From the NCBI RefSeq assembly GCF_030063245.1, contig NZ_JASISR010000022.1, forward strand, positions 1 through 64,000: 64,000 nucleotides of DNA, given 5' to 3'. The first letter of the stretch is position 1, and the number at the start of each line of letters is the position of its first letter. The DNA comes from Paenarthrobacter sp. PH39-S1 (GTDB taxonomy: Bacteria; Actinomycetota; Actinomycetes; Actinomycetales; Micrococcaceae). Below the pieces are notes generated by a model, which was given only the letters and a program-made list of their open reading frames with translations, was not told where the DNA came from and made no database searches. Below, one piece after another: positions 26,985-31,697 of this stretch. The position numbers and the translations under genes were made by a program.

Positions 26985-27965
26985 ATGGATATCGATATGA
27001 GCGCGCTGAGGTTGTTGGAGCGTGAGCGCGAGATCCCCCTGGATCTGCTGATCCCGACGATCGAACAGGCACTGCTGGTGGCTTATCATAAATCGCCAGG
27101 AGCGGTGGCGACGGCCAGGGCGGAGCTGGATCGCAAGAACGGGCATGTAACCATTTGGGCCGCAGAGCTTGACGAAGATGGCGCCGCGATTGGTGAGTTC
27201 GACGACACGCCCGCCGGATTTGGCCGGATCGCGGCCAGTACGGCACGCCAGATCATCCTGCAGCGGCTTCGCGATGTCGAGGATGACAACGTCCTGGGCG
27301 AATTCCGCGGCAAGGAAGGCGAACTCGTTTCCGGGCAGATCCAGCAGGGACACAACCCGAAGATGATTCAGGTGAACCTGGGCTCGGTGGAGGCTCTGCT
27401 GCCTCCCACGGAGCAGGTCCCCGGCGAGCAGTACAAACACGGGAACCGCGTCCGGGCATACGTCATCGATGTGCACCGCGGGCTCAAAGGTCCCTCGATC
27501 ACGCTCTCCCGCTCGCACCCGGGCCTGGTCCGGAAACTGTTCGAACTGGAAGTGCCGGAAATTGCGGACAAGTCCGTGGAGATCGTCGCGCTGGCCAGGG
27601 AGGCCGGGCACCGCACCAAGATCGCGGTCATGGCGCACCAGCCGGGCATCAACGCCAAGGGAGCATGCATCGGCGAGATGGGGTCCCGCGTGCGCGCGGT
27701 GATGACCGAGCTCAACGACGAGAAGATCGACATCGTTGATTTCAGTGACGATCCCGCCACTTTCATTGCCCACTCGCTGTCTCCATCAAAGGTGATTTCC
27801 GTTACGATCACCGATGCGGATGCCCGGTCCGCACGCGTAGTCGTCCCCGATTACCAGCTGTCGCTGGCCATCGGCAAGGAAGGGCAGAACGCCCGCTTGG
27901 CTGCCAAGCTGACCGGCTGGCGGATCGACATCATCTCGGATGCGGCGGTTCCCGCAGCCGGTTAA
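26985..27965 (+). CDS. nusA: Transcription termination/antitermination factor NusA
   Basis: The protein is 326 residues. The N-terminal RNA-polymerase-binding domain ([23 protein letters not shown]) is followed by an S1 domain (LVSGQIQQ to [16 protein letters not shown]). Two KH domains follow, with [17 protein letters not shown] and [21 protein letters not shown]. It lacks the C-terminal acidic repeats of E. coli NusA, as is normal in actinobacteria. ATG 26985 follows the rimP stop directly, and an upstream GTG at 26943 would overlap rimP. Confidence 0.96.
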
Positions 27966-28161
27966 TTCTCCCGTGATGCGGACTGTGGCCACAATGACGC
28001 CGTTCCCCGGCAGTGAGCTGGAAATTCCGGCGTCGCGGACGGTAAACGCCGTCATAAATGGCGCCTCAGGCTCGGGCAGCGTTTAGGCACGCCGTTCCCG
28101 ACGCGCTAGAATGTAATAGACCGGGTCCAGCGACCGTCGACTCCCACCTGAGGCAACAGAA

Positions 28162-28461
28162 GTGTTTGAAGCGGAAACAGTGTTTCAAGCGCCTGCGGTA
28201 CCGTTGCGCACCTGTGTGGGTTGCCGCCGTCGTGATGCCCAGTCACGGTTGTTGCGGATGGTGCGTGGAATGACTGCCGACGGTGTGATCAGTGCGGTAG
28301 CCGATCCTCACCATCGTCTATCCGGTCGGGGTGCCTGGTTGCACCCCACCCGGGAATGCCTTGAGCTGGCTCTCAAACGACGTGCCATCGGCCGCGCCCT
28401 GCCGGGTGTCGCCGACAACTCGTCCGTCCTAAGCCACATCGCAGGACTGACCGGAGGGTAG
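28162..28461 (+). CDS. ylxR: YlxR family RNA-binding protein (DUF448)
   Basis: The 99-residue protein carries the family signature RTCVGCRRRDAQSRLLRMV, then LSGRGAWLHPTRECLELALKRRAIGRAL. The GRGAW motif and basic face are thought to bind RNA. It lies between nusA and infB, as in most Gram-positive bacteria. GTG 28162 is the best start in frame with a weak AGG upstream. Four tiny ORFs follow before infB. Confidence 0.93.
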   Translation: MFEAETVFQAPAVPLRTCVGCRRRDAQSRLLRMVRGMTADGVISAVADPHHRLSGRGAWLHPTRECLELALKRRAIGRALPGVADNSSVLSHIAGLTGG

Positions 28462-28465
28462 CACT

Positions 28466-28615
28466 ATGACCGAACTGAACAAATGTCCAACCTGGAAGCG
28501 GGTCAGAAAACTGATGGAAACCCGATGAGTACCCAGCGATGAGTGCCAAACGATGAGCGTATTTTTATGCTCTGAAACCGTACGTTCCGCCATGGAGCGT
28601 CGAATTAAGAATTAA
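28466..28615 (+). other. Chain of four ATGA-overlapping mini-ORFs before infB
   Basis: A GGAGGG at 28452 precedes ATG 28466, which opens a 20-codon ORF (MTELNKC start) ending TGA 28528. Inside that stop, ATG 28525 opens MSTQR, ending 28542. ATG 28539 opens MSAKR, ending 28556. ATG 28553 opens a second 20-codon ORF (MSVFLCS start), ending TAA 28615. Each junction is ATGA. Two 14-bp units (CGATGAGT type) generate the middle junctions. Whether any of it is translated is unknown. It may be a leader for infB or chance decay of a repeat. Confidence 0.5.
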
Positions 28616-28655
28616 AGGCTCGTACCTGTCCGGTGCGGGCCGAGACAGGAGAAAT

Positions 28656-31600
28656 GTGGCCAAGGCCCGCGTACACGAGCTTGCAAAAGAGCTCGGCATT
28701 ACCTCGAAGGAAGCTGTCACCAAGCTTCAGGAACTGGGCGAGTTTGTTCGCTCTGCCTCCTCCACCATCGAGGCGCCCGTCGTGAAGAAGCTTCGCGACG
28801 CATTCCCCGCTGCACCTTCCGGTGCCGGGACTTCCAACGGCTCCTCAACTGCCCCGGCCGCTGCTCCGGCTCCGGCCGCTCAGGCAACTCCGGTTCCGGC
28901 AGCCGCTCCGGCTCCTTCCGCTAGGACAACGCCGGCTCCGGCCGGCCCCGCGTCCTCAGCTCCGGCTCCGGCAGCTCCCGTGGCTCCGGCTCCGGCGGCA
29001 GCACCTTCAGCTCCTGCGGCTACGGCTCCCGTAGCCCAGACGGCTCCGGCGGCTACCGCTCCCGTAGCCCAGACCGCTCCGGCGGCTACCGCTCCCGTAG
29101 CCCAGACCGCTCCGGCGGCTACCGCTCCCGTAGCTCCGGCTCCCGTAGCTCAGAGGGCTCCGGCAGCAGCGGCTGCAGCATCGTCCACTGCGGCCAAGCC
29201 GGGAGCACGCCCGGCTCCTGCACCGGCCCCGTCGCGTCCTGCGACGGCAGGGCGCCCCGGCGGCCCGCGTCCAGGCAACAACCCGTTCGCGCCGTCGCAG
29301 GGCATGCCCCGATCCGGTTCACGTCCCGACCGTGGTGAGGGCGAGCGGAGCGCGCGTCCCGGCGCCGCCGGCCCCCGTCCGGGAAACAATCCTTTTGCTC
29401 CGTCCCAGGGCATGCCGCGTACGGGCGGACCCCGCTCCGCTGAGGCTGGAACAGGCGGCGCTCATGCAGGGACAAGGCCCCCAGCCGGCGCAGGCGGACC
29501 CCGTCCCGCGGCTGGTGCTGGCGGACCTCGTCCGGGGGCACCGCGTCCTGGCGGTTCGGGCCCCGGCGGCGCGCGCCCCACTCCGGGCATGATGCCTAAC
29601 CGCACCGAGCGTCCGGCAGCACCGGGCCGCGGCAACGATCGCCCCGGCGGAGCCGGCCGTGGACGTCCGGGTGCACCGGGAACTGGTGCGCCGGGTGCCG
29701 GAGGTGGCACCGGAGCACCGGCCGGCGGCGGTTTCGGCAAGGGCGGCCGTGGACGCGGCGGGACCCAGGGCGCCTTCGGTAAGGGAGGCGCCGGACGCGG
29801 CAAGCAGCGCAAGTCGAAGCGGGCGAAGCGGCAGGAACTGGAGCAGATGAGTGCTCCGTCGCTGGGTGGCGTGAGCGTACCCCGCGGCGACGGCAACACG
29901 ATTGTTCGTCTGCGCCGAGGCTCCTCGATTACGGACTTCGCCGACAAGATCGAGGCGAACCCGGCAGCGCTGGTGACGGTACTCTTCCACCTCGGTGAGA
30001 TGGCTACCGCGACCCAGTCGCTCGACGAGGACACCTTTGCCCTGCTCGGCACCGAGTTGGGCTACAAGCTCCAGGTCGTATCGCCGGAGGACGAGGAGCG
30101 CGAGCTGCTCAGCAACTTCGACATCGACTTCGAGGCCGAACTTGAGGCCGAGGGTGACGAGGACCTCGAGGTGCGGCCGCCGGTCGTCACCGTCATGGGC
30201 CACGTCGACCATGGTAAGACGCGTCTGTTGGATGCCATCCGCAACTCGGACGTTGTGGCCGATGAGCACGGTGGCATCACCCAGCACATCGGTGCCTACC
30301 AGATTGAGCACGAGCACGAGGGCACCGATCGCCGTATCACGTTCATTGATACTCCGGGCCACGAAGCGTTCACCGCTATGCGTGCCCGTGGTGCCAAGGT
30401 CACCGATATCGCTATCCTGGTGGTCGCAGCCGACGACGGCGTCATGCCGCAGACGGTCGAAGCGCTCAATCACGCCCAGGCAGCAAACGTGCCGATCGTC
30501 GTCGCGGTTAACAAGATCGATAAGGAAGGCGCCAACCCGGAGAAAATCCGTGGGCAGCTGACCGAATACGGTCTGGTTCCTGAGGAATACGGCGGCGACA
30601 CCATGTTCGTCGACGTCTCGGCCCGCCAGAACCTGAACATCAACGAGCTGCTCGAAGCGGTCCTGCTGACGGCGGATGCGGCTTTGGACATGCGTGCCAA
30701 TCCGAACAAGGACGCCCGCGGTATCGCGATCGAAGCGAACCTGGACAAGGGCCGGGGTGCCGTAGCCACGGTGCTGGTCCAGTCCGGAACGCTGCACGTC
30801 GGCGATACGATCGTGGCCGGTACGGCGCACGGCCGTGTGCGGGCCATGTTCGATGAGGACGGCGGAATCATCACGGAGGCGGGCCCGTCGCGCCCGGTAC
30901 AGGTACTGGGTCTGTCCAATGTTCCGCGTGCAGGTGACACGTTCTTCGTTACCGGGGATGAGCGTACGGCTCGTCAGATCGCCGAGAAGCGTGAAGCGGC
31001 GGACCGTAACGCTGCCCTGGCCAAGCGCCGCAAGCGCATCAGCCTTGAAGACTTCGATCAGGCAGTCGCAGCGGGCAAGGTTGACACGCTCAACCTCATC
31101 CTCAAGGGGGACGTGTCCGGTGCCGTTGAGGCGCTGGAGGATTCGCTGCTCAAGATCGACGTCGGTGAGGGTGTCCAGCTGCGGGTTATCCACCGCGGCG
31201 TTGGTGCCATCACGCAGAACGACGTCAACCTGGCCACCGTGGACAATGCGATCATCATCGGCTTCAACGTCAAACCGGCAGAGCGTGTTGCCGATCTTGC
31301 GGACCGTGAAGGCGTTGACATGCGCTTCTACTCGGTCATCTATGGCGCGATCGATGACATTGAGCTGGCGCTGAAGGGCATGCTCAAGCCGGAGTACGAG
31401 GAAGTCCAGCTTGGTACGGCGGAGATCCGCGAGATCTTCCGTTCGTCCAAGTTCGGAAACATCGCCGGTTCCATCGTTCGATCCGGTAGCATTCGTCGGA
31501 ACTCCAAGGCACGAGTGCTGCGCGCCGGCAAGGTTATTGGGGAAAACCTCACCGTCGATTCGCTCAAGCGTTTCAAGGACGACGCGACCGAGGTCCGGGA

Positions 31601-31697
31601 TGGTTTCGAGTGCGGTATCGGACTCGGGTCATTCAACGACCTGCAGGCCGAGGACATCATCGAGACGTTCGAGATGCGCGAGAAGCCGCGCGCCTAA
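28656..31697 (+). CDS. infB: Translation initiation factor IF-2
   Basis: The 1013-residue GTPase brings fMet-tRNA to the 30S subunit. It starts at GTG 28656 (ACAGGAGA upstream) with the IF2 N-terminal fold [22 protein letters not shown] disordered Ala/Pro stretch (about 55-190) and a Gly/Arg stretch (190-390) follow. The second N-domain comes next, then the G domain with GHVDHGKT at 515-522, DTPGHEAF and NKIDK, and domains II to IV to the end. The length reflects the expanded linker, as in other actinobacteria. Confidence 0.97.
29019..29134 (+). repeat. 33-bp tandem repeats inside infB
   Basis: Three and a half near-identical 33-bp units encode repeats of the type [11 protein letters not shown] in the IF2 linker. 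Units 2 and 3 are identical, so copy number may vary between strains. Confidence 0.9.

Follow-up and report, generated by a model that had tools for sequence, protein, structure and literature searches.

A class-wide chain of overlapping mini-ORFs between ylxR and infB is predicted to form a re-initiation leader of the gene for initiation factor IF2

The 64,000-nt stretch of Paenarthrobacter sp. PH39-S1 analysed here (hereafter the window) carries the neighbouring genes ylxR and infB, and the spacer between them contains a series of very short open reading frames followed by potential RNA helices (Table 1). From 28514 onwards, it reads ATGGAAACCCGATGAGTACCCAGCGATGAGTGCCAAACGATGAGC and encodes the peptides METR, MSTQR and MSAKR, followed by a 20-codon ORF, with each stop codon joined to the next start codon in an ATGA overlap (28525-28528, 28539-28542 and 28553-28556). 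These three junctions are present in the sequence as claimed in the initial annotation, as are the CGATGAG repeats at 28523, 28537 and 28551, spaced 14 nt apart (TRF: period 14, 2.5 copies), and the 40-nt interval between the stop codon of the last mini-ORF (28613-28615) and the GTG start codon of infB at 28656. The hairpin P1 begins 1 nt past this stop codon. When both strands of the 64 kb were scanned for chains of ORFs with a minimum of 3 codons (up to 8 codons for inner ORFs and up to 40 for the last one), this was the sole chain with at least two junctions.

Table 1. Features of the ylxR-infB region in the window
Feature	Positions	Strand	Basis
ylxR, upstream neighbour	28162..28461	+	Pfam PF04296 YlxR, E 7e-19; ORF list
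Upstream extension of the first ORF, ATG 28466 after GGAGG	28466..28513	+	Non-conserved, by eye, in four same-genus relatives
Conserved block GGAAGCGGGTCAGAAAACTG, 5' of the first conserved mini-ORF	28494..28513	+	Seen by eye across relatives
Mini-ORF 1, METR, 4 codons, ATGGAAACCCGATGA	28514..28528	+	Kept in relatives; chain scan
Mini-ORF 2, MSTQR, 5 codons; ATGA overlap with stop of ORF 1	28525..28542	+	Sequence, chain scan
Mini-ORF 3, MSAKR, 5 codons; ATGA overlap with stop of ORF 2	28539..28556	+	Sequence, chain scan
Last mini-ORF, 20 codons	28553..28615	+	Sequence, locus comparison
Hairpin P1, GGCTCGTACC (28617-28626) with GGTGCGGGCC (28632-28641)	28617..28641	+	Outer six pairs compensated, 64 sequences
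Candidate alternative helix P2, CCTGTC (28625-28630) with ribosome site GACAGG (28644-28649)	28625..28649	+	Partner permutation; window's order only
infB Shine-Dalgarno region GAGACAGGAG	28642..28651	+	Sequence, anti-SD pairing
infB, translation initiation factor IF2, GTG start	28656..31697	+	Pfam IF-2 PF11987, IF2_N PF04760

Rfam covariance models gave 0 matches in positions 27900-28900 (E up to 1). No promoter-like sites were found in 28100-28750, and the same interval contains one terminator-like site on the minus strand (0.6 expected) and none on the plus strand. Within infB, the Ala/Pro-rich stretch of IF2 is encoded by a 33-bp tandem repeat (29010-29134). Outside the window, the same genome carries ATGAGCNNGGCACGA-like units arrayed at intervals of either 15 or 11 nt (G000:C47:105783-105857), another possible ATGA-junction repeat, as well as ATGARACTGCACGGA-like units arranged in tandem at 15 nt (G000:C40:6634-6712).

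The chain had originally been described as starting with a 20-codon ORF behind a strong ribosome site. A GGAGG motif (28453-28457) does precede an ATG at 28466, which opens a 20-codon frame ending at the TGA at 28526-28528, but by eye neither this start codon nor its ribosome site is conserved in four same-genus relatives (L003-L006), two of which (L005 and L006) have ATGs elsewhere, some 40 nt before METR and in a different frame. Since the 28466 start and the GGAGG are absent there, in frame, in the relatives, the METR frame at 28514, which shares the reading frame of the ORF from 28466 and lies further in, was taken as the conserved start of the chain.

Searching with DNA gave hits in 35 of 39 genomes, including the window's own, and the IF2 N-terminus as a query hit 228 of 296 genomes in the phylum and 237 of 246 in the class. 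DNA was fetched for part of the IF2-matching genomes, yielding 280 loci, of which 269 had a parsed infB start (the 11 unparsed ones being L013, L207, L236 and eight of the 30 loci fetched from outside the class) and which gave 255 unique upstream stretches, 233 of them within the class and 22 in other classes of the same phylum. At least two chained ATGA or GTGA junctions (inner ORFs of at most 8 codons) were found in 217 of the 233 class loci compared with 0.9% of dinucleotide shuffles, a contrast that overstates the significance because related sequences are non-independent; the remaining 16 have one junction, and none has zero. Chains with at least two junctions were found in 0 of the 22 parsed loci outside the class. 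For family-level comparison, a labelled set of 166 of 294 loci was used, leaving out window duplicates, the 30 out-of-class loci, all 80 named loci and a number of others; labels for the families were transferred manually, and families f12 and f14 are absent as they had no IF2 match. With 1-nt overlaps also allowed and inner ORFs of up to 10 codons, at least two chained junctions were present in 161 of 166 labelled loci and, in at least one locus each, in all 48 families; shuffles reached this in 1.1% of cases and are a weaker argument than the breadth of families covered.

Five labelled loci thus lack a qualifying chain, two of them (L020 and L024) owing to a 36-codon last ORF that moves the start beyond the 180-nt view, whereas L016, L064 and L147 are real deviants. 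L092, also labelled, has an irregular chain whose last ORF extends up to infB, and L289, from outside the labelled set, shows by eye a single junction between 10-codon ORFs. Among the named records (the best 80 of 361 matches; mostly Streptomyces, with Actinomadura, Microbispora, Planotetraspora and others), 78 of 78 parsed loci qualify. Pairs of CGATGAG proved a poor search pattern in their own right, with several matches elsewhere in most class genomes.

The usual anatomy comprises mini-ORFs that are 4, 5 and about 6 codons long, the last of which ends at a median of 43 nt 5' of infB. Codon tables, junction words and structure were compiled from 156 loci of 46 families, after ten of the 166 had been dropped (chain too short or last stop codon outside 30-75 nt from infB). 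Lengths of 4 and then 5 codons are the commonest and form the majority in 33 of 46 families. Typical chains are MSTR/MSTR/MSTPMK of Streptomyces-like genomes, MSTP/MKSR/MTMRHS in f19, METK/MNGSK/MRPVRE in f17 and MRKI/MKLK/MSSFTS/MRSNN in the small f97 genomes. In most labelled loci (134 of 166), the last ORF is 5-7 codons long, compared with 20 in the window; in the window's family (e.g. L003-L012, L020 and L024), it often spans about 20-36 codons and often starts with MSxxLCS, whereas most other families have 5-7 codons. The overlaps of the labelled set comprise 317 ATGA, 33 GTGA, 12 TGATG and 4 TAATG. Departures in length are by whole codons with the overlap retained, and 263 of 301 neighbouring ATGA pairs no more than 30 nt apart are spaced 2 mod 3, the phase of overlapping frames, chiefly by 14, 11 and 17 nt.

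The complementarity of the upstream sequence to the anti-Shine-Dalgarno sequence was compared with one mononucleotide shuffle each in 64 sequences, the canonical three ORFs being the last three in the window's family. The median energy before ORF 1 was -6.2 (shuffled -5.0), and the values before ORFs 2 and 3 were -2.5 and -2.0 (shuffled -3.7 and -3.1), with a median of -7.4 for infB against -6.5 in shuffles. Pairing is therefore above the shuffled level before ORF 1 and infB and below it before canonical ORFs 2 and 3, which lack a ribosome site of their own (n=64), as do ORFs coupled by termination-reinitiation. The start codon of infB, defined as the one nearest the conserved N-terminus, is GTG in 166 of 166 labelled class loci versus 5 of 22 outside the class. 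As a strong clue, this was weakened by an rpsL control, in which 30 genomes yielded 28 loci and GTG was found in 22 of the 27 that could be parsed, and the class-wide GTG may be ordinary inertia.

The last mini-ORF is 20 codons long in all five same-genus genomes, and its peptide showed 6, 5 and 9 nonsynonymous versus 3, 4 and 4 synonymous codons in three within-genus comparisons (stop codon counted). Drift of the peptide at constant length fits a role for translation as such better than one for the peptide. M-S-T/A-R-like mini-ORF peptides are common across families, and a conserved nascent peptide of the stalling type was not found, given that the last-ORF peptide diverges in the genus and the mini-ORF peptides differ among families.

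Between the last stop codon and infB, the hairpin P1 was evaluated in 64 sequences, drawn from 92 distinct segments with no more than two from any family and with L160 and L287 excluded. Its six base pairs were 89.7% paired, and 6 of 6 were changed on both sides, compared with 57.1% pairing in the best slid register; among 500 shuffles, none matched the paired share or the covariation score and one matched the count of double-change pairs. The alignment is ragged, and RNAalifold recovers four of the six pairs. The alternative helix P2 would pair the tip of P1 with the infB ribosome site. In permutations of the partners, 6 of 2000 were as strong over all orders (37 families) and 2 of 2000 in the window's order (20 sequences), in which exchanges such as CCTTCTTC with GAGAAGG occur, whereas 280 of 2000 were as strong in 43 sequences outside the window's order, where P2 is unsupported.

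The effect of a ribosome on the last stop codon was approximated by folding with an assumed footprint. When 9 nt beyond the stop codon were masked, the infB Shine-Dalgarno region was predicted to be unchanged in 52 of 78 cases, more open in 17 and less open in 9; a 12-nt mask gave 42, 29 and 7, respectively. In the window's order (n=21), the 9-nt mask led to 3 more open and 4 less open cases and the 12-nt mask to 11 and 3, and the region in the window itself was 39% open both without a mask and with the 9-nt mask, and 76% open with the 12-nt mask. The predicted effect is weak and varies with the footprint chosen. A scheme in which the ribosome at the last stop codon masks P1, so that P2 closes the Shine-Dalgarno region and shuts off infB, is not supported across the class by these masking counts, nor by P2 outside the window's order.

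The anatomy of the chain, its conservation, its frame-keeping variation and P1 are established by comparison of sequences. From these features, we infer that the ylxR-infB spacer is probably a leader that is translated by serial termination-reinitiation and sets the translation of infB. The earlier suggestion that a single ribosome could terminate and re-initiate repeatedly is favoured by the class-wide conservation of the stop-start overlaps. A ribosome would start at mini-ORF 1, alone of the canonical three in having Shine-Dalgarno-like complementarity, make a short peptide (typically of 4 residues) and reach a stop codon overlapping the next ATG or GTG, where it would re-initiate without a Shine-Dalgarno sequence and then repeat this step at the next junction. 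It would finish at the last stop codon just 5' of P1 and, sitting there at the base of the hairpin, presumably cover its foot and change access to the infB start, most likely in a helpful manner. Initiation at infB need not collide with a ribosome in this position, because the median distance of 43 nt slightly exceeds the ribosome length of 34-38 nt reported in PMC5972666.

Since serial hand-overs multiply probabilities, the output of such a leader would respond steeply to the efficiency of re-initiation. In E. coli, overexpressed IF2 and formylated initiator tRNA are reported to promote re-initiation, which is lowered by excess IF3 (PMC2268962). As each hand-over would need a fresh initiator tRNA and re-initiation in E. 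coli is favoured by IF2, the proportion of ribosomes that get as far as the last stop codon would fall steeply as re-initiation weakens. Translation of the leader, tuning of infB by the chain, IF2-dependent re-initiation as its input and the direction of the response are all putative; completion of the chain would more likely help than hinder infB, and with IF2 as the input this would give a positive, non-homeostatic feedback, a negative one arising only through the drop-off of short peptidyl-tRNAs considered below. Tentatively, and with somewhat less than even confidence, the leader may follow a bacterial GCN4-like logic throughout the class, in which IF2 sets its own level, with the passage of two to four restarts dependent on IF2 and fMet-tRNA (or escape from IF2-driven drop-off of peptidyl-tRNAs with 4-6 residues) varying as a power of IF2 activity and P1 switching infB on or off.

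Plain translational coupling, in which the relay only keeps or delivers ribosomes to infB or holds P1 open and senses nothing, is unlikely but deserves consideration: the delivery of ribosomes downstream by short uORFs is a recognised idea in a coupling review (PMC12548453), infB has complementarity of its own to the anti-Shine-Dalgarno sequence, and masking of P1 opens the Shine-Dalgarno region more often than it closes it. However, one uORF near infB would suffice for this purpose, each serial hand-over should lose ribosomes, the distance of about 43 nt from the last stop codon is long for direct re-initiation, and it is left unexplained why the gene of IF2 should be the one concerned.

A rather doubtful reading takes the chain as a sensor of drop-off, with ribosomes carrying peptidyl-tRNAs of 4-6 residues being ejected by IF1 and IF2 (or RRF and RF3), so that abundant IF2 would abort the relay and lower infB in a negative feedback. 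The title of Karimi et al. 1998, as given in the reference list of PMC10192219, describes the removal of short peptidyl-tRNAs by IF1 and IF2, and the inner ORFs have 4-6 codons in 317 of 366 cases although their sequences vary. CGA is the last sense codon at 221 of 366 junctions, but this preference is partly forced because an ATGA junction demands a last codon ending in A. The last ORF, which often has 20 or more codons in the window's family, also argues against this reading. Either process, IF2-dependent re-initiation or drop-off driven by IF1 and IF2, would let infB read IF2 activity.

It is improbable that CGATGAG repeats are conserved as an RNA or DNA motif bound by a protein, with the ORFs being incidental. 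By eye, many families share CGATGAG as well as a GAAGCRGGTCGAG-like block further upstream, and a further helix, P0, could form around the first start codon by pairing of CGGGT (28499-28503) with ACCCG (28520-28524). P0 is weakly supported (26 of 2000 permutations as strong, 40 related families), in a test that used MSTQR as the first ORF in the window's family and thus did not include the window's own pairing. Against a protein-bound motif, CGATGA is found at 192 of 312 junctions, and the other 120 have different letters (such as AAATGA, CAGTGA, AAGTGA, CCGTGA, TCATGA, TGATG or TAATG) with the stop-start overlap kept; five of 46 families (f6, f9, f17, f97 and f108) have zero CGATGA in the canonical three ORFs and retain the overlap, and the spacings shift by whole codons. 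That a 14-bp unit was duplicated by chance in this genome, a possibility left open initially and one to which the alike, evenly spaced copies of the window might point, is refuted with near certainty by the presence of the same chain in 48 of 48 labelled class families and in 0 of 22 loci outside the class, together with ORF lengths that shift by whole codons, junction letters that vary and the lack of Shine-Dalgarno complementarity before ORFs 2 and 3.

The proposed leader has partial counterparts in known systems. The gene infC, encoding IF3, is autoregulated through an AUU start codon, and it resembles the proposal for infB in that an initiation-factor gene is governed by a step that its product influences; it relies on a rare start codon and no ORF relay, in contrast to the uniform GTG of infB in the class. 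Yeast GCN4 and mammalian ATF4 are controlled by eukaryotic scanning, spaced uORFs and phosphorylation of eIF2. Several short uORFs are likewise conserved in front of these regulated genes, and at ATF4 re-initiation after short uORFs is described as dependent on the delivery of initiator tRNA; the likeness is an analogy, the regulation of infB being putative, and the spaced uORFs of eukaryotes differ from overlapping bacterial ORFs in front of the initiation-factor gene itself.

Stop-start overlaps of 4 nt or 1 nt (ATGA, TGATG) are described as a coupling device between protein genes (PMC6728339, PMC12548453), and gene pairs overlapping in this way and coupled by termination-reinitiation share them with the infB leader. 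The leader differs in having a series of two to four overlaps, ORFs that mostly span 4-6 codons and encode no evident protein, and a main gene that does not overlap but lies about 43 nt downstream, all conserved class-wide at one gene. A short upstream ORF combined with leader RNA structure is also found in the stalling uORF attenuators of whiB7/wblC and topAI (PMC10727445, PMC12121999), whereas the infB leader shows no sign of a conserved stalling peptide, no plus-strand terminator-like site in 28100-28750 and, instead, a conserved chain of overlaps. As a separate observation, a WhiB7 ChIP peak upstream of infB (MAB_3131c) is reported in Mycobacterium abscessus (PMC10727445), suggesting a stress-linked promoter near the leader.

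In line with the original remark that no described system of this kind was known, the open-access papers among the matches listed showed no account of mini-ORFs before infB. The gene infB is unmentioned in the main text of the 2025 coupling review (PMC12548453), and a paper on infB expression in E. coli contains neither 'upstream ORF' nor 'small ORF'. Overlap coupling and uORFs are known, and a serial mini-ORF relay with class-wide conservation in front of the IF2 gene is new as far as these searches go. If translated, it would to our knowledge be unmatched among bacterial series of overlapping mini-ORFs in the breadth of its conservation.

The putative relay precedes an initiation-factor gene in a class to which Streptomyces belongs. 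If the leader is translated, the regulation of IF2 levels, the form of the re-initiating ribosome and the role of short-peptide drop-off would become directly testable by simple reporters, and the infB leader would constitute a natural multi-step re-initiation assay. The relay may point to a new means of sensing the efficiency of translation initiation.
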